Assembly (NCBI GenBank): GCA_003584625.1
Contig: AP017647.1
Coordinates: 1,288,603 to 1,352,602 of the forward strand
DNA: 64,000 nucleotides
Source of the DNA: Methanothermobacter sp. MT-2
GTDB lineage: Archaea > Methanobacteriota > Methanobacteria > Methanobacteriales > DSM-23052
Direction: 5' to 3'
The position numbers and the translations under genes were made by a program. Below, piece by piece: positions 42,084 through 53,759 of the stretch; the stretch's first letter is position 1, and every line of letters begins with the position of its first letter. The notes below the pieces were generated by a model. The model was not told the DNA's origin and made no database searches. It saw nothing but the letters and a program-made list of their open reading frames with translations.

Positions 42084-43862
42084 CTATTGAGGATCTTCTT
42101 TGTGGATTCTTATTGTTTTTGTTATGATGGTTTTGATGAATTTTTTGAGTTTTTCTTCATCTTTTCTGTTGTTTGGATTTAGTGGGAATGCTCCGATGGA
42201 TGGTATCTCATTTATGTCTTCCTTGAAAACTATTTTTTGGTTGCCGGGGTAGAGTATGTAGGCGCCGATGCTGTGTAATATGGCGTCCTTGTAGGTGTGC
42301 ATTTTGTAAATGTCACCGGCTTCGTATTTTCTTTTATATTCTTCTTCCAAGTCTCTTTCTTTAACTTCGGAGTCGTTATAAAAGTTTCTTGTTATTTTTG
42401 ATCGGTATTTGGCGTCAAAGTGTATGAAATAGGTGCATTCATCAATGTCGACGAGAATAGAATAATCTGGTATGAAAGGTAGGGAATAGGATCTGCATCT
42501 TGTTTCACCCGCAAACTTCCGATTATAAGATAACTTAATAATAATAGTGTCTGTTGGCATTTTTAATGCGAATTTGAGCATGGATTCATAACCACGTCTA
42601 ATTTTAACCCTCCATTTACCAATTTTAAAAACATCAAGTGGATTTACACGCTCTCCTGTGATATCTTCCAATATCCTCATAAGTTTGAAATAGCACCAGT
42701 ATTCGTATAATTCACTGAGCCTTTTCTCAAAACCCCTAAAACTTTCTTCGAACTCCTTCCATGCGAAACGCAACGAAAGCTCCAGGATAAAAAAGTATCT
42801 TAAGATGTCTCGGTAACCATCACGTTTCTGTAAAACCTGCGAATTAAGAGGAAGATACTCAACAGCACCCACATCCTTTAACCAATCAAATGAAAGCTGA
42901 TAATCCACCTCATCCAAAAAAAATTTCAAAGAATCTCTTATATAACCCTCTGACGAGTCTTCAAGGAGATTTAAAATGAGATCTTCAAGTGATTCAAGAA
43001 AATATTTATAAAAGCGATTCTCAGAGGTGTCAGGAGTCTCCTCCAAACAAACCTGGGGCAAATTCCTAATTTCACCCTCTGCACTGATACCTGTAGGCTC
43101 TGATACTGTTCTTGGAAGTCCCCCAATATCTATATTTGATGCCAGCGCCACAGGCACAAAATCAACCTCACGTTTAAGCCTAGTATAAAAATTCCTATTA
43201 ATATACTCAGCGGCCGAAGGAAGATTCTCGGGCCTGAAAATATACTCTAAGATGATGAAATCTTCATAGAACGTTTTTGCTTTGGAGCTGTCAACTACAA
43301 ACCTTTGGAATGTGGGTGAATCTGCTTCAAGTATGAGTGATGATATCTCATCTGATAAGTCAGCTAGCATCCTAGGATAGTCATCATAGTAACTGATTTT
43401 CCTTGACCTCACCTCAACTGGTATAGATTCTCTACCCAGACTTGTCTTGATATCAAGAAACGTTTTACCCACATAACTTTTGAAATCTAGGAATCCTGCA
43501 ACAATATTATCTCCAAGTTCAAAATTTAATTTTTCGAATGTAGACCTCCCAGAAGACACTATAAATGGGAGAAGTTCAAATTTGTCTTCTTCACTTTCAA
43601 ATAAAACGTGGTATTTTATATTTTCTAGTAGCATGATCTCGTTAAGATTTTCAAAATAGGGACAATATTCTATGGGTTCAAGGCCGGGTCTTTCAACCTC
43701 TGGCACATTAATCAACCTAACCTCATAACCATTTACCTTAACTATCTTATCAGACTGGTTATGTGTCTGAAATTTTTTCGGCGAATCTTTTATGTAATCT
43801 TTTTCGCCCGCTTTTATTCTTAGGGTTCCTCCATGAAACTTTATTCGGAGCTCTTGGTCCAT
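42084..43862 (-). CDS. McrC-like nuclease (DUF2357 plus PD-(D/E)XK)
   Basis: The 592 residues have an N-terminal and central DUF2357 region (for example FENLNEIMLLENIKYHVLF) with many charged helices, then a restriction-nuclease domain in which PDYSILVDIDE gives the Asp and YFIHFDAKYRSKI gives the D-x-K pair; KMHTYKDAI is the following Q/H-x3-Y motif. It is the nuclease partner of the McrB-like ATPase encoded just upstream. Together they form a type IV-like modification-dependent system. The gene is intact. Confidence 0.82.
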   Translation of the reverse strand: MDQELRIKFHGGTLRIKAGEKDYIKDSPKKFQTHNQSDKIVKVNGYEVRLINVPEVERPGLEPIEYCPYFENLNEIMLLENIKYHVLFESEEDKFELLPFIVSSGRSTFEKLNFELGDNIVAGFLDFKSYVGKTFLDIKTSLGRESIPVEVRSRKISYYDDYPRMLADLSDEISSLILEADSPTFQRFVVDSSKAKTFYEDFIILEYIFRPENLPSAAEYINRNFYTRLKREVDFVPVALASNIDIGGLPRTVSEPTGISAEGEIRNLPQVCLEETPDTSENRFYKYFLESLEDLILNLLEDSSEGYIRDSLKFFLDEVDYQLSFDWLKDVGAVEYLPLNSQVLQKRDGYRDILRYFFILELSLRFAWKEFEESFRGFEKRLSELYEYWCYFKLMRILEDITGERVNPLDVFKIGKWRVKIRRGYESMLKFALKMPTDTIIIKLSYNRKFAGETRCRSYSLPFIPDYSILVDIDECTYFIHFDAKYRSKITRNFYNDSEVKERDLEEEYKRKYEAGDIYKMHTYKDAILHSIGAYILYPGNQKIVFKEDINEIPSIGAFPLNPNNRKDEEKLKKFIKTIITKTIRIHKEDPQ

Positions 43863-43881
43863 TTTATGGTCCTCTGCAGGG

Positions 43882-45036
43882 TTATCTTATGAATGATACG
43901 TATCTTTGGACTTTTAGGGTTTCTTCCATTTCCTCTAATTTTTTCTCAGAATTTGGGAACTTTCCCCTGCAGTGTTCTCTGAGTTTTTGTAGTGTGTCTC
44001 TTAGTAGTCTTTCTGGGCCATGTATTTTTGGCAGGATCTTCTGTTTGATCTGGGCGTCGAAGTAGCGTTTCCAGTTATTCCACTCTTGTGGTTTTCCCTG
44101 GTAGATCCATGCTGCATGCATGAATGATAATATTTCGTTGACTACGCGGAATCCGAAATCGAAACCTGATCCTTTAAGTTCTTTGTAGAAGAATTCGAGT
44201 TCATCTGTAATCTGATCCAGGATTGGGTTGAGGTCCTCTTTTATCTTAGCAGTTTCTATGTTGTGGTTTAATGGATTTTCTAGAAATCTTAGGTTGCCCT
44301 TGAGTTCTTGTTTTGGTTGATCGGTGAGGTACTTTTTGGGGTTTGTTGTTTCGAATTCTATGGTGTTTGCACGGTCAAGGACCTTAGGCGAGAACATGTA
44401 GGTTGTTTCATCAACGTTCACTGTCCCTACAACAATAAGATTTTCTGGTATTTCTATTTCTTGTTCGAAGCCACATTCTCGATTATCATGTAATGGTATT
44501 GGTTCGCTACTTTCAATGGCTGATAGGAAATCAGAGAAGTAACGTTCCACATGCGACAAATTCATCTCATCCAAAATCAAAAGATAAGGATTATCAGGAT
44601 CTTCTCTTGTTTTCCTTATAAAATCAAGTGCAGGGGTGCTCTGATACTTCCCGGTCATTATATTCAAGTAACCGAAAATATGCCTCTTTTCGGTCCAATT
44701 AGCGCCCACTGGAACCATAAGGTATCTTTTCTCCCCATCGGATATGTATTCACCATACAATTGAGCAAGTTTAGTCTTACCAGTACCACTATTACCAGTC
44801 AAAATAACAAAAGGTTTAACTTTAATTGAAAGAAGGAAATCCTCAACAATCTCGGGCTCAAAATAAAAACCCTTAGATTCGATGAAATCATAAAAGGAAC
44901 CAATAGGTGGAGATTTAAGCTCTTTATAAATTTTCGAAAACTTTTTAAGGTCGGAAACAAGTCTATCATTTTCAGGAAGATCATCCCTTGGATAATATGT
45001 AGCATAGATGATCGCATCTTCATATGGATGCTCTGA
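43882..45036 (-). CDS. McrB-like AAA+ ATPase/GTPase, 5'-defective
   Basis: From TTG 44802 the frame reads TGNSGTGKTKLAQLYGEY (Walker A), LLILDEMNLSHVERYFSDFL (Walker B and signature), and NLIVVGTVNVDETTYMFSPK (sensor), all as in McrB. Coding similarity clearly continues upstream of 44802 (ESKGFYFEPEIVEDFLLSIK and before it YPRDDLPENDRLVSDLKKFS) to an in-frame TGA at 45037, but no ATG, GTG or TTG exists in that stretch. A peptide with similar character (CENCLKEISPLDD) lies in another frame just beyond. I conclude the 5' end is lost or frameshifted. Confidence 0.7.
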   Translation of the reverse strand, partial: SEHPYEDAIIYATYYPRDDLPENDRLVSDLKKFSKIYKELKSPPIGSFYDFIESKGFYFEPEIVEDFLLSIKVKPFVILTGNSGTGKTKLAQLYGEYISDGEKRYLMVPVGANWTEKRHIFGYLNIMTGKYQSTPALDFIRKTREDPDNPYLLILDEMNLSHVERYFSDFLSAIESSEPIPLHDNRECGFEQEIEIPENLIVVGTVNVDETTYMFSPKVLDRANTIEFETTNPKKYLTDQPKQELKGNLRFLENPLNHNIETAKIKEDLNPILDQITDELEFFYKELKGSGFDFGFRVVNEILSFMHAAWIYQGKPQEWNNWKRYFDAQIKQKILPKIHGPERLLRDTLQKLREHCRGKFPNSEKKLEEMEETLKVQRYVSFIR

Positions 45037-45137
45037 TCATCCAAGGGTGATATTTCCTTTAGGCAATTTTCACACTCTGTTTAGTGGTTCTAGTCGTTTT
45101 TTAGTATTTTAATTGCTTATGTATTACACCATTAAAC

Positions 45138-45169
45138 TTTATAAAGTCTTCAGTTAAGACATAGTAGTG
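45138..45169 (+). promoter_or_regulatory. Promoter of the dpdA-like operon, probably leaderless
   Basis: TTTATAAA at 45138-45145 is the only clear TATA before the operon. Initiation 22-27 bp downstream would fall on or next to GTG 45167. No Shine-Dalgarno site precedes that codon. A leaderless mRNA is inferred. Confidence 0.55.
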
Positions 45170-46297
45170 GTGATTAGTATAAAATTTGATATTAGTTATG
45201 AAGATGATGAACTTTCTTGTAGAAGTGGTATTTTTAAATTAAATGGGAGTGCCATTGAAACGCCTTTAATATGGTTAGGATATCCCATAGGAAGTTCTCC
45301 AAGGCTTTGGGAAGTTCTTCCTATGAAAAATTTGATGGTTAATGCCTATGAAGTTCTTAAACGTCTGAAAGTATGTGAGGAAGTTTCGAAGAAGGGTATA
45401 CATGAATATCTCGGTTTTGATGATCTGGTTTTCATGGATTCTGGTGGTTTTTTATTCCAGAAAAAGGATAAAATGGATTTAGATCCGGAGATAATCTTAA
45501 AGTTATATGAAACCTCAAAGCCTGATATAGCCGCAGTTTTAGACCATCCTTTTGATCCTTCACGGCCAAGCAGGATAAATAGCAGAAGATGGCTTAAAAC
45601 ACTCAAGAATACAAAATATATGTTAGAAAATAATGGAAATATCCTTTTAATGCCCATACTCCACGGTTATGCTTTGAAGGATTTGAAAATGGCTTGTAGG
45701 GAGATAAAAAAGATTGATGAAAACCCAAAATTCATTGGATTGGGGAGCCTAGTCCCCTTAATATTCAATACTAAAGGAAGCAAGAGAATCAAGGATGGTC
45801 TAAAATTTATAGTAGATGCAGTTGGATTAATTAGAGAAGAATTCCCAGATTCATTGCTGCATACATTTGGAGTGGGCAGTAGCCAATCAATGCATTTCAT
45901 GTTTGCTCTGGGAGTGGATTCCCTTGACTCTATGGGATGGAGATTAAAAGCTGCTTATGGAGTAATACAATTGCCAGGTGTGGGGGACAGACACCTAACA
46001 CCACGTAATACTAAAAAAAGACCTTTTATAAAAGGTCGTGAGAAGGAGTTATTGGCAGCTTGTGAATGTCCTGCTTGTAAAAGTAAATCCCTTGAAGAGA
46101 GGATTCAAGATCTAAACGATAATTTTTATTTCAGATCTGTGCATAACGCGTGGGTGTTCCTTAATGAGCAGAAAAAGTTTCATCAAGCTTTGAAAGAAGG
46201 GTATATAAAATCCTTCATAGAAAGTAGGCTAAAAAAGGGGATGTTCTCTAAAGCAGTTAAATATGTAATTAATGATCAGACCGCCTTACAATTTTAG
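45167..46297 (+). CDS. dpdA: DpdA-like DNA 7-deazaguanine transglycosylase (TGT superfamily)
   Basis: The 376-residue TGT barrel shows: MDSGGF at 90-95 with the substrate-binding Asp91, MPILHGY at 162-168 in place of the IVQGG loop, GLGSLVPL at 191-198, and GVDSLDSMGWR at 249-259 with the nucleophile Asp region. The segment following it, AYGVIQLPGVGDRHL at 263-277, is what DpdA proteins have (they replace the base in DNA) and differs from tRNA-modifying TGTs. A complete zinc site C299-x-C301-x2-C304...H326 is present. It would insert preQ0 or a relative into DNA guanine sites. First gene of a four-gene operon with nuclease and ATPases. Substrate DNA is inferred. Confidence 0.8.
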   Translation: MVISIKFDISYEDDELSCRSGIFKLNGSAIETPLIWLGYPIGSSPRLWEVLPMKNLMVNAYEVLKRLKVCEEVSKKGIHEYLGFDDLVFMDSGGFLFQKKDKMDLDPEIILKLYETSKPDIAAVLDHPFDPSRPSRINSRRWLKTLKNTKYMLENNGNILLMPILHGYALKDLKMACREIKKIDENPKFIGLGSLVPLIFNTKGSKRIKDGLKFIVDAVGLIREEFPDSLLHTFGVGSSQSMHFMFALGVDSLDSMGWRLKAAYGVIQLPGVGDRHLTPRNTKKRPFIKGREKELLAACECPACKSKSLEERIQDLNDNFYFRSVHNAWVFLNEQKKFHQALKEGYIKSFIESRLKKGMFSKAVKYVINDQTALQF

Positions 46298-46312
46298 TGG
46301 TGGGGGAGTTCT

Positions 46313-47404
46313 TTGGATTATGAAGAACTTGTTGAATTGAAGAAACGCTTTGAATTCAATAAAACAGAGTCACGAATATTATTGGAATTAGTACGTAAAG
46401 CGAATCGTATAGGAGAAAGATTCCAAAAAGAAAATGTGAGACTTAAAAAAAGGGCTCGAGGAATTTTTGATGAAATTTCCAAAATCGAAGAATTTTTGTT
46501 TACAGAAGACAATTTACCAGATAATAATTTTACAGATTGTTGCACGGTTGGAATCGATGGCAGTTTTTATCTTATTGGTGGAACCGGAGGAAAATGGTAT
46601 GCACCATATTCTATAGTCAGAATCCTCTTTGAAAATGGAATCGAAAGCCCCCCCCAAGTTGACATATATGCTGCTGGTATAGAAGAAATAAGTGAACAAA
46701 AAGATTTCAATGTAGAAATGGCAGCAGCCTTAAGAATGCTTGTAGGTGAGACCAAGGCTATAGAAAATTGGAGTAATAAGAAAAAAAGTTCTTTAATTTT
46801 TATAGATGGACCTATAGCTGATCCACCATTTTATAAAGATAAACATTACATAGAAGATCGTTCGAATGCGATCAAAAAATGTCTACGAAATTCTCGAGTG
46901 ATTGGATGTGTTAAAAAGTCCAGAGAACGCTTCTTTATTAAAGAATTTGAAAGCATCAGCAAAAAATCTTTTGATGATTTTCCTAGTGACCAATATTTAT
47001 TCACCTATTTATTTTCAGCGTTTAGACATAAAAACAAATACAATGGTGCTTTATACTCGAAATTCTTAGACATTTCAGATTATGAAACAACTTACCAGTT
47101 ATATAAAGAACAGGGAATTCATGTATGTTCCGGATTTTTCCAAAAGAGTATTGACTCTAAAATATTACGTTTAGATATTCCATTATTGAAAGGAAAATTA
47201 AAGCAAAATAAAATTTATTGCGATGCTGTAAAAGCAACTCTTGATTGGCAATATCCTAAACAATACATACCATTGCCTATAGAATTGGCTCATCAAAAAT
47301 GCAAAATTCGGGAAGGAGCTGCTGAGGTTTTATATGAGGAAATAATAAGCAAATCCAGATCTGGTGATTTAGAAGATCAAATTAATTTATTTCAATTGAG
47401 GTGA
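46313..47404 (+). CDS. NurA-domain nuclease
   Basis: The 363 residues contain the NurA motifs: an N-terminal helical region, VGIDGSFYLIGG with catalytic Asp82, LIFIDGPIADPPFY with Asp165, and a C-terminal WQYPKQYIPLPIELAHQKCKI motif. NurA is a single- and double-strand nuclease that works with the HerA translocase. It starts at TTG, 15 bases after the transglycosylase, with GGGGGAG upstream, and overlaps herA by 4 bases (GTGA). This copy is likely a defence paralogue because the context is not the Mre11-Rad50-HerA-NurA repair cluster. Confidence 0.85.
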   Translation: MDYEELVELKKRFEFNKTESRILLELVRKANRIGERFQKENVRLKKRARGIFDEISKIEEFLFTEDNLPDNNFTDCCTVGIDGSFYLIGGTGGKWYAPYSIVRILFENGIESPPQVDIYAAGIEEISEQKDFNVEMAAALRMLVGETKAIENWSNKKKSSLIFIDGPIADPPFYKDKHYIEDRSNAIKKCLRNSRVIGCVKKSRERFFIKEFESISKKSFDDFPSDQYLFTYLFSAFRHKNKYNGALYSKFLDISDYETTYQLYKEQGIHVCSGFFQKSIDSKILRLDIPLLKGKLKQNKIYCDAVKATLDWQYPKQYIPLPIELAHQKCKIREGAAEVLYEEIISKSRSGDLEDQINLFQLR

Positions 47405-49071
47405 TCCAAATCCAAAATGAAGATGAATTAGGAATCATATTAAGTGGGGCTACGACCAGAGAAGCTACATGTCAATTACTAGAAAGTGCTGAAGGTGGAT
47501 TAGAGGAAGGAATGTTAGTTCTAGTTTTAAGTCAAGGAAGACAAATATTGGCTAGAATTTCTCAGATATTCCCTTATAACGCATTTTATACTGAGGGCGA
47601 TGCTTGGAGTGAGGCAAGAAGAAAAGACTTGAAAATTCCAGGAGAAATTGCTAGACAATATGAAATTTGTAAGCTTGATTTATTAATTGAATTGCCTCAA
47701 GGAGAAATAAAATACCCCCCAATGCCAGGAGATTATATTACAAAAATAGACCCTAAAAAACATGAAAAGAAAATTTATGGTATTGATCGTGAAGAACCAG
47801 GATATTGTTGGTATGGAACTTTATCAGGTTACAAAGAAGCCCCAGTACCATTAGATGTTGAAAAAATCCCTATGCACATGGCCGTGTTTGGTACTACAGG
47901 GAGTGGTAAATCATTTGACACTGGAAATTTAATAGAGAAACTTATGAGAATACGTGTAGATAATATGAGTTCAGTATCATTTCCTATGATTATCATAGAC
48001 GCTAATGGTGATTATTTGGATTATTATGAACATTTTAAAAAAAATGAAGAATTTTTGAATGTTGGATGGATAAAAAGGTTTGTATTTCCACATGTGGAAA
48101 TGGAAAACCCAAAATTACACGGTGAGGATGTAATTGGTATTGATTTAGATGCTTTATCGATAAGAGAAGTGGCAGAGACTATCATGATGTATTATAGGGG
48201 CACGCTAGAAGGTGCAGAATTGCAATTAAGTGGCATAGTGAATCTACTTGAATATATGAGAGATGAAAAAGCTTATGATTCCATGCACGATCTTTTCTGC
48301 GACGACGAAAATTATACAGAATTAAAGGAGGAACTTGGAAAAATTGATACTAAAATAATACATAGACAAACAAAGGATGCGATAATAAGATCATTTGAGA
48401 AATTTAGAGAAATAGAGAGAAATTATGGGGTATTATCTGCAAAATCACATTCTGAATTAACAAATGAGAACTTCATAGATGAAATTACAAGAGGAGGCGG
48501 GGTTGCGATCATTGATTTTTCTGAAGAAGGTGCCACTGGGGTAGAAATACAAGTTAAACAGCTTGTTATGACTTATCTTGCAACGCGTTTATTTAATGAA
48601 TTTACAGAATACAAAATCAGGGAGAATGGCAGATATTTAATATTTTTAATTGAAGAAGCCCAAAATTTCGTGCCTGATAAATCATATCCCGTAGGCTCAA
48701 CTCTTGCAAAAAACAAATTGTCTTTAATAGCTACTCAGGGTAGAAAATTTGGACTTTCACTATGTTTAATCACTCAACGTCCATCATTCCTTGATAGAAT
48801 CGTTCTATCAATGTGTAATACATTCCTTATACATAGGATTTCACCAGAAGACGTGAGTTATGTTAAAAATGTAACTGGAGGCCTTCCAGCTTCTCTGGCA
48901 AATAGACTTACAAGATTAACTCAAGGTGAATTAATTTTAACAGGGCAAATGAATAAATTACCATTCCCTCTCTTAATAAAAGTCCCAGAAGAAGATAGAA
49001 TTGTTGAACATACTGCTGGGACTACAAATGTTATTGACAGATTATCTAAACTTAGGGGGGTTAAATCTTGA
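47401..49071 (+). CDS. HerA-family DNA translocase (DUF87 ATPase)
   Basis: The N-terminal ~150 residues form a HAS-barrel. The RecA-like core follows: Walker A FGTTGSGKSFDTGNL (163-177), PMIIIDANGDYLDYY, Walker B RYLIFLIEEAQNFVPD, and the QGRKFGLSLCLITQRPSFLD motif with the arginine finger. HerA hexamers pump DNA into the NurA nuclease. GTG 47401 overlaps the NurA stop by four bases and the GAGGTGAT site coincides with the start. It overlaps the next gene by four bases too. Intact. Confidence 0.9.
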   Translation: MIQIQNEDELGIILSGATTREATCQLLESAEGGLEEGMLVLVLSQGRQILARISQIFPYNAFYTEGDAWSEARRKDLKIPGEIARQYEICKLDLLIELPQGEIKYPPMPGDYITKIDPKKHEKKIYGIDREEPGYCWYGTLSGYKEAPVPLDVEKIPMHMAVFGTTGSGKSFDTGNLIEKLMRIRVDNMSSVSFPMIIIDANGDYLDYYEHFKKNEEFLNVGWIKRFVFPHVEMENPKLHGEDVIGIDLDALSIREVAETIMMYYRGTLEGAELQLSGIVNLLEYMRDEKAYDSMHDLFCDDENYTELKEELGKIDTKIIHRQTKDAIIRSFEKFREIERNYGVLSAKSHSELTNENFIDEITRGGGVAIIDFSEEGATGVEIQVKQLVMTYLATRLFNEFTEYKIRENGRYLIFLIEEAQNFVPDKSYPVGSTLAKNKLSLIATQGRKFGLSLCLITQRPSFLDRIVLSMCNTFLIHRISPEDVSYVKNVTGGLPASLANRLTRLTQGELILTGQMNKLPFPLLIKVPEEDRIVEHTAGTTNVIDRLSKLRGVKS

Positions 49072-52000
49072 AAACAACCAGTTTGTATGATAGACTTCCT
49101 TCAATTGCGGGTGTACATTTTGGAGGTTTTGAGAATATAAAGATTGAAAGTAGAGAAAACGTTACAAGAAAATTAGAGGATTTTATTAAATATTGTCGGA
49201 GCTCTGCTAAGGGAACTGCAGTTTGTATGATACTAGGCGAATGGGGTCAAGGAAAAACTGAAACCTTTAAAAGATCTATTGAACCATTATCAAAAAAAGG
49301 AGGTGATTATGCTTTCTTTGTGTCTGCATCAACTTTATCGAACTCTTATCAAAACAAAGAAGTTTCAAAGATATGTGATAAAACACCATTAACATCTCTA
49401 AAATTTTTAGTCAACTTATTTAACAGTATAAAAGCAGAATCCAATGATGAAAGTATAGGAATACCCTCATTGGAGGATTATCTAGATCCTGAAGATTATA
49501 TGGAAAATGTGTTAGATAATTTATTGTCAAAAAATAAGAGCAAAAGGATATTTATTTTTATAGATGAGTTCGAAGAACTCCTTTTAAATATGGATCATCT
49601 AAAAAGTATCGTTTCAGGAATAAAAGAAACCATAAATGGGGTTTATAAACCAATCCATGAGGGCGGGAAGTATAGTGGATCATTGCACATATTTATATCA
49701 ATTACTCCAGACGCTTATAATAAGCTCCAAGTGCATGAGGAAACCAGCCTAATTTTTGGAGGATTGGGTAGAAGAATTGAAATCATCGAGCTGCAAGAAC
49801 TAAGAAAAAAGGAAGGACTAGCTTTTCTTAAAGCACTTTTGGAATACTCCTATAATTATAATTTACCACGCCCATATCCCATAGAAAATCTTGGTTTATT
49901 TAATACACTATTAAGAATCAGTCAAAACAACATAGGGAATATCGTAACATTATATACAAAACTTTTCAATAACCTAAAGAAAGATGATAAATTAGAAATT
50001 TTAAATTACAAAAACTTGCTTAGATTTTTAAAAAGGGAAAAAATATTTGTTTTCGGTGCAGAAGCTCCTTGCATAGAAAAAGACAAATATTACAAGATAA
50101 TGGAATGTTTAAGTGATCAAAGGACCAAGGAGCTAGGAGAATTAACCAAAGAATTATTTAAATTATTTATAGGTGAATTTAAGCCCTTTAAATTAGATGA
50201 ATTAGTTGAAAGAACAGGAGAAGATGAAGATACGATTTTAAGGTCTATTAATTTGCTCAATGAAGACTTAAAGCGTGAAGAGAAAATTGAAAAATCTATA
50301 ATAAAAGTAGCTCCTTTAAAAGATGATGTAAGTATTGAAGATGTCTTTGATCCTTTAAAATACTACATTATAACTGACGAGATAACTAATAAAGACATGA
50401 TCTCGATAGATAGTTATAGTGAAAGTATAACTGATTTTGAAGATAGAATTACCTTCTTTGAATTTGGTGAAAATGGTGAACTAATTCCCCAAGCAGTTCT
50501 GCCAGTTGACGAAATTGATATCAAATTGTTTTTCAAAAACGAAATAAGTGAGGATAAAGCTGTAGAAATTCGCAATTCCTTAAAAAGGTTCATAAAAGAT
50601 GAAATAATGTACTTAGCAAGCGATTTATTGCTCAATGAAATTTTCCCAACACCAATTCCAAGGGCATTAGAGTTTATTAAAAATAAGGAAATAAGATTGA
50701 AACTTTGGAGAGAAATATCCAGAAATCTAACAGATGAATATTCCAAAAATATGCCACAAGCATTCATAACAGTTCTTGACAAATCTAAATACTACAATTT
50801 AGATTTTGTTGATAGTCGTGAAAATTATTCTATTTTTGAATTAGAGAATCCTAAAGATGAAACCCAGATAAAAACAATGTTTTATGTAGTAAATGGAGAT
50901 GTGAAAGGAGTTGATATAGATTATATATCGGAAATTTTGAACAATGAGATGAGTATAAATTTAACAATTCTTTTATACAATGGAGATTTCACATATAAAG
51001 CCGAAGAAAAAATCCAAAACAAAGAATTAGATGAAAAAAATAAATATTTGATTTTAAAGACATTCCTCCATCCAACACTAACAAAGAAGATAATATGTTG
51101 TTACAAATCTTTAAATGAATACGCTGAGTTCATAGATGAAGAAAGACTCGAACTCGAATGTAAAGATATAATAAGTAGAGAACTAAATTTAGATTCTAAG
51201 ATTGACGAATGGTTGAATAAACAAGTGAAAAAAGGCTTAGTAATTGATCAAATAGAAACAACGGCCAGAAGCCTCTCCGAATTCGCAGACGGTTTAAAAT
51301 TATACATAAATTACATGGAAAAAGCATACAAACCTGAAGAAATTTTCGATAAAAACATAGAGGGTATATTAAAATTCAGAAAATACGGGACTAAAACTGG
51401 GTTTATATCATCTGATTTTGAAGATTCCCCAAAAAAAGTCGAAGAGATATCTCTAGATTTGCAAAAAAACGGTTTTTTAGATAAGAACCCAGATGGTAGT
51501 TACAAAGTAAAACAACACCCAGTAGAAATGAGAATTCTTGAAATCATGAAGAAAGAAAAGAAGGTAAGCCCAAGTGAATTTAGGGATTATTTCATCATAA
51601 AGCAAAAAACAGGCAAGATCTTCGAAGACGTGTTTTTAAATATCTTAGAGTATAAAGGCAAAATTAGAAGAAAAGGCAAATCATATACTTTAGTAGACAA
51701 AGAAGAAGCCTATAATTCTCTAAAAGTAAAGCTCAAAAAGTATAATGAAACAATCAAAGAAGAAACGCTTAAAACTTTTGATCATTTCTATGTAACTAAG
51801 AAAAGGGAAGATAAATTAATAATGTTAGATGAAGTCAATGAATTCATAGAAACTCTTTGGGAGAAAATCGAGGCATTAAAAGCCTCATTAGAAGAGGACC
51901 TTTTATTACAAAAAATAAGTCTTTGTAACAAACTTCTAGAACAAATTGAAAAAGAAATATTACCCGCAATAAAGAAAGCTTCAAAAAGAGGAAGAAGCAT

Positions 52001-53291
52001 TATAGAAGAAATCGAAAGAAAAAGAAATGACTTAGAAAGAGATTTCGATTATATAGTTAATAACAGCCAAAAGTGGCTGAATATAAGATTCAAAAAAGAG
52101 AATATTTTAGAATATAAAAATTTAATGAGAAACCATGAAAAAATAGTTGAAATTTACAAAAAAATTTGTTCAAAAGAAGAATTGAATAAAATCAGGGATA
52201 ATGAAAACTTTGATAAAGACCAATTTTATTTTAATAAAAAAATTGACCACGCGCATTACTTTAATATAAAGCTTTTTGAATTGAAAAAACTAAAAGAACA
52301 ATTCAATGATAATGTAAATATCATAAAAAAACTTATTGATAGAAACAGGAGAGCATTCGAAAATATAAACGAGCGGTGGAGGGAATATAAGAGACATATA
52401 ACAACTCTCGATATTCCTCCCAATTATAAAATTTCATATTGTATATCTGAAAAGATGAAGCTGGATGAAATAGATAATAATGAAACAGCACACACAATAA
52501 ATAGGGATGTAAAACTCTCTTGGATAGAAAAACAATTAAAAGAAAAAGAAAAGGCCATAAATGATAAATTAACCACACTTTTAGAACAAATAAATGATTT
52601 AAAAAGTTTAGCAAAAAAAGAAGAAAACCTTCTTTTATGTTTAGAAAAAAGCAAAGATTTTGTTAAAAAGATAGATTACATATTTGATATAAAAAACTTG
52701 AAAATTATAGTTACTTCATTTAAAGAAAAAGTATTAAGACTTGAAAAAGAATATGAGGAACTCGATCCTATAGAAATAGCGGAAAATAAAACTGAAAATC
52801 CAAAAGATTTCATAGAGAGATGGATCGAGACTTTAAAATTTGATAAAGATAATATTGATCAAGAATGGAAGCATTTTGTACAAAGCACTTTTTTAGAATT
52901 TATAAATAGAAGTAAAAAAATTTGTAAGTTACTTAAACAAAAGGGCATAAATACAGCGGCAGTTGAAAAAAGGGTTGAAGAATTGTCAAATAGCGTTAAA
53001 ACGCCTTTAAATAAATTAGAATATAGTGCAAGTTCATTAAAAGGTGAAAAGGACATAATTAGAGAAGAATTAAAAAAGCTTAGTGATCCTTTTTTAACCA
53101 CTAATGAATTTAGAGTTCTTGAAATATTAGAATCTGTAAAAGGCAAGTCTAAATGGGTAGATTACGACAAAATAAAGCAAAAAGCTTTAAAAGAAATGAA
53201 TGAAGATGCCCTTCAAGAAGCCCTTGGGGGTTTATTATCAAAAGGATATTTAAAAAAAGGATTCTCGTTGATATTATCATTCATCCAATAA
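49068..53291 (+). CDS. Giant AAA/STAND-like ATPase with winged helices and a long coiled coil
   Basis: The 1407-residue protein has an N-terminal P-loop domain: Walker A LGEWGQGKTE at 56-65 and Walker B FIFIDEFEEL at 162-171, with ISITPDAYNKL as sensor. It has a C-terminal lid like Orc/STAND ATPases. A set of winged-helix domains occupies about 330-430 and 850-930; a Lys/Glu-rich coiled coil covers about 930-1330; another winged helix ends the protein (FRVLEILESVKGKSKWVDYD). It starts with TTG behind GGGGGG, overlapping herA by 4 bases. No family name is certain; size and layout recall BrxC/PglY-like defence ATPases. It is rich in A. Confidence 0.75.
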   Translation: MKTTSLYDRLPSIAGVHFGGFENIKIESRENVTRKLEDFIKYCRSSAKGTAVCMILGEWGQGKTETFKRSIEPLSKKGGDYAFFVSASTLSNSYQNKEVSKICDKTPLTSLKFLVNLFNSIKAESNDESIGIPSLEDYLDPEDYMENVLDNLLSKNKSKRIFIFIDEFEELLLNMDHLKSIVSGIKETINGVYKPIHEGGKYSGSLHIFISITPDAYNKLQVHEETSLIFGGLGRRIEIIELQELRKKEGLAFLKALLEYSYNYNLPRPYPIENLGLFNTLLRISQNNIGNIVTLYTKLFNNLKKDDKLEILNYKNLLRFLKREKIFVFGAEAPCIEKDKYYKIMECLSDQRTKELGELTKELFKLFIGEFKPFKLDELVERTGEDEDTILRSINLLNEDLKREEKIEKSIIKVAPLKDDVSIEDVFDPLKYYIITDEITNKDMISIDSYSESITDFEDRITFFEFGENGELIPQAVLPVDEIDIKLFFKNEISEDKAVEIRNSLKRFIKDEIMYLASDLLLNEIFPTPIPRALEFIKNKEIRLKLWREISRNLTDEYSKNMPQAFITVLDKSKYYNLDFVDSRENYSIFELENPKDETQIKTMFYVVNGDVKGVDIDYISEILNNEMSINLTILLYNGDFTYKAEEKIQNKELDEKNKYLILKTFLHPTLTKKIICCYKSLNEYAEFIDEERLELECKDIISRELNLDSKIDEWLNKQVKKGLVIDQIETTARSLSEFADGLKLYINYMEKAYKPEEIFDKNIEGILKFRKYGTKTGFISSDFEDSPKKVEEISLDLQKNGFLDKNPDGSYKVKQHPVEMRILEIMKKEKKVSPSEFRDYFIIKQKTGKIFEDVFLNILEYKGKIRRKGKSYTLVDKEEAYNSLKVKLKKYNETIKEETLKTFDHFYVTKKREDKLIMLDEVNEFIETLWEKIEALKASLEEDLLLQKISLCNKLLEQIEKEILPAIKKASKRGRSIIEEIERKRNDLERDFDYIVNNSQKWLNIRFKKENILEYKNLMRNHEKIVEIYKKICSKEELNKIRDNENFDKDQFYFNKKIDHAHYFNIKLFELKKLKEQFNDNVNIIKKLIDRNRRAFENINERWREYKRHITTLDIPPNYKISYCISEKMKLDEIDNNETAHTINRDVKLSWIEKQLKEKEKAINDKLTTLLEQINDLKSLAKKEENLLLCLEKSKDFVKKIDYIFDIKNLKIIVTSFKEKVLRLEKEYEELDPIEIAENKTENPKDFIERWIETLKFDKDNIDQEWKHFVQSTFLEFINRSKKICKLLKQKGINTAAVEKRVEELSNSVKTPLNKLEYSASSLKGEKDIIREELKKLSDPFLTTNEFRVLEILESVKGKSKWVDYDKIKQKALKEMNEDALQEALGGLLSKGYLKKGFSLILSFIQ

Positions 53292-53759
53292 TTTTATATT
53301 TGTGATATAATAGACAGGAACTCTTGAAAACCAGAGAATATGAAAATAAGGTTTTGAAAGCAAAGGGCTTGGATAATAAAAAACTATCTTTTTAAAGCCA
53401 TATTTCCTTGATTTTTGGCGAATCATCTTACCTAACTTCTGCTTGTCCTCCATATGCAATTCACCAGGATGAATATCATAATAATCTAGGCACTCATCAT
53501 ACATATGTATACCATACTTATCAGAGAGCACTCCATACTTTAAACTATACATGTTCATGTACCTATAAAAAAGCTGGTTATATCTGCCCTGGTACAAGTC
53601 TTTTGGGAGCCCCCGGAGTAATTTTTTCGTTTTAGAGCATGATATACTCCATAGAGCATTGTCGGGGATATCACTAGCCTCTTCTATAATCCTGAAATTA
53701 TACTTTTCTTCTAAGGCCTCTTTCCACTTTTTTGAATTAGGTATTTTAGGGACTATCAT
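53277..53759 (-). CDS. DUF6884-like protein
   Basis: The 160 residues show a Rossmann-like pattern: WSISCSKTKKLLRGLPKDLY, then RYNQLFYRYMNMYSLKYGVL, SDKYGIHMYDECLDYYD and a final KIVFYYPSPLLSKPYFHILW. The S-C-S-x-x-K start, the YxxxxF helix and the L-S-x-x-Y-G/YD motifs agree with DUF6884. That domain resembles in motif order the DUF5591 part of archaeosine synthase. It converges on the giant ATPase gene with a 15-base overlap. I infer a link with base modification of the DpdA product; this is not shown by sequence alone. Confidence 0.68.
   Translation of the reverse strand: MIVPKIPNSKKWKEALEEKYNFRIIEEASDIPDNALWSISCSKTKKLLRGLPKDLYQGRYNQLFYRYMNMYSLKYGVLSDKYGIHMYDECLDYYDIHPGELHMEDKQKLGKMIRQKSRKYGFKKIVFYYPSPLLSKPYFHILWFSRVPVYYITNIKLLDE

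Follow-up and report, generated by a model that had tools for sequence, protein, structure and literature searches.

Our analyses of a 64,000-nucleotide stretch of the genome of the archaeon Methanothermobacter sp. MT-2 (contig AP017647.1; the whole stretch is called the window here) revealed a five-gene locus encoding a protein of the tRNA-guanine transglycosylase (TGT) fold, a NurA nuclease, a HerA translocase, a giant ATPase, and a DUF6884 protein. The locus recurs as a unit in other genomes and has been gained or lost as a block; its transglycosylase is separate from the tRNA-modifying TGTs, its DUF6884 protein is akin to DpdC, and the host encodes a gene of the preQ0 pathway. We propose that the locus is probably a mobile restriction-modification module, in which the transglycosylase and the DpdC-like protein would mark self DNA, and HerA and NurA, under the control of the ATPase, would attack DNA that lacks the mark.

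The open reading frames (ORFs) and their Pfam domains (Table 1) bear out the initial annotation of this DNA, which had described four genes overlapping or nearly touching on one strand and closed by a convergent DUF6884 gene, and had read the partners of the transglycosylase as a nuclease, a DNA pump, and a large ATPase (Pfam NurA, HerA DUF87, and AAA_22/nSTAND_NTPase5). The NurA and HerA domains are encoded side by side by genes sharing a 4-bp overlap, the HerA and giant ATPase genes likewise overlap by 4 bp, and the convergent overlap between the giant ATPase and DUF6884 genes spans 15 bp. The giant ATPase begins with an AAA/STAND-like domain containing GEWGQGKT and FIFIDE motifs and continues into a long C-terminal region; the DUF6884 protein carries SCSKTK, YxG, LSxxxG, and YYD motifs. 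Searched against the PDB, the HerA domain retrieved HerA-family ATPases (e.g., 9c1m, 8xau, 8ziq, and 8wiv) at about 1e-16 to 1e-21, several of which we take to be defense complexes carrying other effectors; compared with these, the window HerA is associated with NurA and with predicted DNA-modifying enzymes. Profiles of the giant ATPase and of NurA had no match in the PDB, and an Rfam scan found no family at the locus. The window is part of a complete archaeal genome of 1.52 Mb that includes two NurA genes; heterodisulfide-reductase-like genes, recognized by eye, point to a methanogen, probably of the Methanobacteriales.

Table 1. Features of the five-gene locus and its edges (window coordinates).
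Feature	Position	Strand	Basis and remarks
TGT-fold transglycosylase	45167..46297	+	ORF, Pfam TGT 2e-19; third clade, by sequence neither tRNA TGT nor bacterial DpdA
NurA-family nuclease	46313..47404	+	Pfam NurA 1e-6 (28.9 bits, cut-off 21); paralogue of the host's other NurA
HerA/FtsK-type hexameric DNA translocase	47401..49071	+	Pfam HerA DUF87 2.8e-25; PDB sequence relatives are HerA-family ATPases
Giant ATPase, 1407 aa	49068..53291	+	AAA_22 2.6e-6, nSTAND_NTPase5 4e-5
DUF6884 protein	53277..53759	-	Pfam DUF6884 9e-8 (32.8 bits, cut-off 30); DpdC/YaaA/ArcS-core superfamily
Likely promoter, archaeal TATA-like TTTATAAA just upstream of the TGT start	45130..45166	+	Read by eye; putative
Approximate left edge of inserted module	45077..45080	.	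End of similarity to sister species
Right edge of inserted module	between 53760 and about 54831		Comparison with sister species

Judged from its sequence, the transglycosylase is neither a DpdA nor a TgtA; it belongs to a third clade and is predicted to be a non-tRNA paralogue. Against TIGR00432, the TgtA model (cut-off 350), it reaches 106 bits, and against the DpdA model NF041059 (cut-off 200) 27.7 bits; PADLOC and NCBIfam scans for DpdA returned weak matches at most; a search with the Pfam DpdA model PF23859 found no match in it, while the control of that search likewise matched nowhere. The enzyme retains the catalytic aspartate pair D91 (in DSGGF) and D254 and the zinc ligands C299, C301, C304, and H326. 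DSGGF stands where DpdA reads DCGAF, and HG occurs where most tRNA enzymes have a QG motif. Given these scores, the DSGGF motif, and the third-clade placement, the motifs formerly described as DpdA-type rather than tRNA-type are not specifically those of DpdA. In a phylogenetic tree it falls within a 27-row clade (support 97/99) separate from TgtA (99/98) and bacterial Tgt (100/100), while bacterial DpdA with its haloarchaeal relatives forms another group (100/100) apart from this clade; branches are long and the deep order is unsure. In line with the earlier expectation that the enzyme would not group with the tRNA TGTs, an approximately unbiased (AU) test rejects keeping it among them (p-AU 9e-9). 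Elsewhere in its genome the host encodes a canonical TgtA (300 bits), and it also has an ArcS-like fragment and the preQ0 pathway gene queC (QueC, 210 bits), which makes the window enzyme a spare paralogue; we rejected it as the host's own tRNA enzyme, the canonical TgtA being encoded elsewhere. Similarly, TgtA scores above its curated cut-off in 10 of the 12 Asgard genomes encoding clade members, and Tgt is strongly matched in each of the eight bacterial hosts tested. The wider clade includes the TGT of the virus STSV1 and Asgard paralogues without evident defense genes.

What is the relevance of the DUF6884 protein? The literature, profile matches of genuine DpdC proteins, fusions of DUF6884 to DpdA, and a predicted YaaA/AF0587-like fold agree, and we therefore identify DUF6884, at the level of superfamily rather than orthology, as the DpdC domain; the initial annotation, which saw no DpdC-like gene here, is to be revised on this point. 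DUF6884 was named as the Pfam domain of dpdC in the GATOR-GC paper (PMC11888242), and DpdC has also been assigned to DUF328 (PMC12839542). A plasmid-borne DpdC from Enterobacter (PADLOC 6e-142) matches DUF6884 at 6e-5 and one from Sinorhizobium at 1e-6, and Asgard DUF6884 partners match DpdC models at 3e-12 and 6e-10. In Nostoc and Paenibacillus, an N-terminal DUF6884 is fused to proteins that NCBI names DpdA; in Deinococcus, a DUF6884–TGT fusion lies near DpdE and DpdF; and on a haloarchaeal plasmid of Haladaptatus, TGT and DUF6884 genes adjoin DpdJ- and DpdK-like genes. Because the structural model of the window protein is of low confidence, rendering its fold search meaningless, we modeled a cyanobacterial partner from Coleofasciculus (L030; pLDDT 85.6), whose top fold matches are AF0587 and E. 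coli YaaA (DUF328), with a probability of 0.99 and TM-scores of only about 0.33. In the PDB, AF0587 also gives the top match, albeit a weak one, to an ArcS-core protein from Melioribacter described below.

The transglycosylase, NurA, HerA, giant ATPase, and DUF6884 genes travel together as one unit more than chance would allow. A protein search across 152 genomes of the phylum recovered the giant ATPase from three, namely the window genome and two genomes from another family of the order, where the TGT, NurA, HerA, giant, and convergent DUF6884 genes occur in unchanged order (identities of 52% for TGT, about 38% for the giant, and 57% for DUF6884). An alignment-based scan for the TGT across 84,980 species genomes yielded 17 loci, including relatives about 40% identical in a Kariarchaeota and a Melioribacter metagenome-assembled genome (MAG) and relatives 25–30% identical in cyanobacteria and in a proteobacterial and an acidobacterial MAG. 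Cyanobacteria and an Acidobacteriota MAG contain a DUF6884–NurA–HerA–TGT operon with TGT last (L021, L024, L030, and L031). Pfam confirms NurA in L021 and L031, and strong similarity identifies it in L024 and L030. At the edge of a contig, a proteobacterial locus retains NurA, HerA, and TGT, and other loci read DUF6884–HerA–550-aa protein–TGT or HerA–Mre11-like–Rad50/SMC-like–TGT. One Asgard genome (G247, locus L110) has all five component types, with DUF6884, TGT, a 339-aa gene, a 1388-aa nSTAND/AAA protein, NurA, and HerA. Gene order differs there and the giants match weakly, and hence either an old common system has been much rearranged or the parts have been assembled repeatedly. Neither of two scans of viral contigs, one run with the TGT protein and the other with alignment A3, turned up a relative. 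The co-occurrence anticipated by the initial annotation thus holds in the two genomes of another family, in Asgards, in cyanobacteria, and in Acidobacteriota; its view of an archaeal solution proved too narrow, since DUF6884–NurA–HerA–TGT operons with the same logic occur in the latter two bacterial groups.

Several relatives of the locus vary its composition. In two cyanobacterial loci (L011, 1695–10032; L026, 2546–10996), HerA, Mre11-like, Rad50/SMC-like, and TGT genes form an operon with a conserved 352-aa protein without a Pfam match; this operon is a candidate for a second nuclease arm serving the same TGT clade. At five others (L022, 8312–9964; L025, L027, L032, and L033), a conserved protein of 540–550 aa lies between HerA and TGT, where NurA stands elsewhere; neither Pfam nor PADLOC matches the L022 copy, and we regard the protein as a putative nuclease. 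In the bacterium Melioribacter (L019, 9971–13517), a clade TGT lies two genes from an ArcS-core DUF5591 protein; a 505-aa protein is encoded there too, an integrase is nearby, and the arrangement suggests dG+ in bacterial DNA. On haloarchaeal plasmids (L012–L014 and L016), a second TGT accompanies a 344-aa TGT, a 299-aa gene, and a "BREX ATP-binding" protein; in L013 this second TGT is fused to DUF6884, and queC/folE/queE/queD-like genes are present as well; these plasmid genes appear to be another deazaguanine cluster worth a look. In an Asgard genome (L106, 8874–18372), a DUF6884–TGT pair adjoins BrxL and a weak PglZ match, possibly representing a BREX system with a 7-deazaguanine mark.

Comparison with sister species shows that the module was gained or lost as a block. 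One of them (G004) has the flanks without the module, similarity stopping at about 45,077, resuming at about 55,231, and 1.5 kb lying between; a second (G003) is arranged similarly. The GC content of the operon is 0.29–0.36, versus 0.375 for the window, and the module boundaries show no clear repeats. An mcrB-like gene has 714 open codons in G003 and only 306 aa left in the window, from which it follows that the module probably replaced the gene's 5′ end. The truncated gene adjoins an intact DUF2357/PDDEXK_7 partner (42084–45077), and this neighboring McrBC-like system is probably broken in the window host. We dropped the McrB-like/DUF2357 pair as a component of the module, as it occurs in sister species without it. 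A 587-aa protein that combines BrxP-like and BrxC/PglY-like parts, and which adjoins the module in two genomes (L007, 4641–6404, and L008), was dropped as well, being absent from the window genome and found in genomes without the giant gene.

Based on these observations, we propose the following model, in which DNA as the substrate, the product, self-marking, restriction of unmarked DNA, and the role of the ATPase are what we infer. The TGT-fold enzyme would exchange guanines of host DNA for preQ0, or a derivative, supplied by the host's own archaeosine synthesis for tRNA, for which QueC is present. The DUF6884 protein would convert the DNA-borne preQ0 to the final base, most likely an amide, as DpdC does, or possibly an amidine, as ArcS does. 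HerA and NurA would then act as a translocase–nuclease degrading DNA without the mark, with the 1407-aa ATPase, a proposed sensor or loader, sensing or licensing the attack. We are evenly divided over a broader version of this model, according to which 7-deazaguanine restriction-modification systems of one class span more than one domain of life, third-clade TGTs and DpdC-like proteins mark self DNA, HerA enforces the mark with interchangeable nucleases (NurA, the 550-aa protein, or Mre11–Rad50-like proteins), and the mark is possibly dG+ where an ArcS-core partner is present.

Several observations weigh against this model. By profile score, the window TGT is nearer to TgtA (106 bits) than to DpdA (28 bits), and some Asgard clade members have no evident defense genes adjoining them. 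The window DUF6884 is barely above its cut-off (32.8 versus 30 bits) and lacks the C-terminal part of DpdC; its structural model is of low confidence (53.6), with no match in the fold search; and a 3-row profile of window-type DUF6884 alone misses DpdC, which a pooled profile matches. The Asgard and window giants are linked by weak AAA/STAND matches only.

How does the module compare with known systems? With the bacterial Dpd (dpdA–K) islands it shares a TGT-fold enzyme, a DUF6884/DpdC-domain protein, preQ0 from the host, ATPases, and a nuclease-like arm. In contrast to Dpd, the arm consists of NurA–HerA and the giant ATPase, and the TGT lies outside the DpdA clade and far below the DpdA cut-off, arguing against orthology. 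As the initial annotation had it for the locus, there is no DpdB-like gene: DpdB (DGQHR/DndB, PF14072) has no match in the whole host genome, and a PADLOC scan of eight locus proteins named none of DpdD–DpdK. By these searches, the system would work like Dpd without being a member of it.

Phage and archaeal-virus DpdA pathways (9g, STSV1) likewise employ a transglycosylase, that of STSV1 within the wider clade, and viral 7-deazaguanines have been reported to shield viral DNA (PMC6884629). It is conceivable that the mark is foreign rather than self, and that the DUF6884 protein and TGT recognize or strip 7-deazaguanine of viral DNA for degradation by HerA–NurA in a modification-dependent, type IV-like defense. 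This is the main rival to our model, and archaeal viruses do carry 7-deazaguanine pathway genes (PMC6884629). Among its weaker fold matches, the DUF6884 partner has the DNA glycosylases SMUG1 and TDG, and the reported interactors of DNA lesions include a DUF6884 member (PMC11701544). We nevertheless consider this rival unlikely: in characterized dpd islands, an enzyme pair of this kind serves to mark self DNA (PMC11888242), the host can supply preQ0, and an ArcS-core synthase near the Melioribacter TGT suits synthesis better than removal.

BREX-related capture (BRC), described in 2026 for bacteria and some archaea, combines large AAA/STAND ATPases and a TGT with a HerA/FtsK translocase (PMC12839542). 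The association of HerA with TGT, part of what the initial annotation read as a distinct archaeal solution, has therefore been published already. Taking the module as an archaeal subtype of BRC, for which the BrxL and weak PglZ match near the Asgard L106 pair might also speak, is in our estimate distinctly unlikely. Unlike the window system, with its NurA and DpdC-like gene, BRC has PglZ, DUF6079, DUF4007, and sometimes GNAT; PglZ has no match in the whole host genome, and a scan of eight proteins from the locus matched none of DUF6079, DUF4007, and GNAT, arguing from sequence against membership. Conversely, neither NurA nor a DpdC-like gene is listed as a component of BRC, and the published account of that system reports no homologue of DpdC (PMC12839542).

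Adjacent NurA and HerA genes are also a feature of archaeal end resection (with Mre11–Rad50). The window pair differs from that machinery in sitting with TGT and DUF6884 in a host that has another NurA gene elsewhere, and some cyanobacterial TGT loci pair HerA with Mre11-like and Rad50-like genes instead. An RNA-modifying TGT paralogue might lie by chance beside an unrelated NurA–HerA repair or defense cassette, as the tRNA-enzyme-like fold and zinc site of the TGT and the solitary Asgard clade members would allow; we judge this very unlikely, given that the same partners recur in distant phyla and in differing orders, that DUF6884–DpdA fusions exist in other genomes, and that the five genes are jointly absent from sister species. 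Scarcely credible is a general NurA–HerA–ATPase defense to which TGT and DUF6884 were added as an anti-restriction shield against other host nucleases, e.g., the neighboring McrBC-like system, since the recurrent pairing of TGT and HerA at many unrelated sites would sooner suggest that the two are functionally coupled than that they form a local shield, even though the low-GC module landed in the mcrB-like gene.

Our literature search found no paper joining guanine transglycosylase, NurA, and defense, and a 7-deazaguanine modification system with a NurA–HerA arm would probably be new. If the model is correct, 7-deazaguanine marking of DNA would reach beyond the Dpd islands of bacteria into cellular archaea, including methanogens and Asgards, and would gain a different restriction machine. 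The NurA–HerA pair, usually read as repair proteins, would be tied to modification-based immunity, and DUF6884 proteins adjoining TGTs would acquire a likely function.

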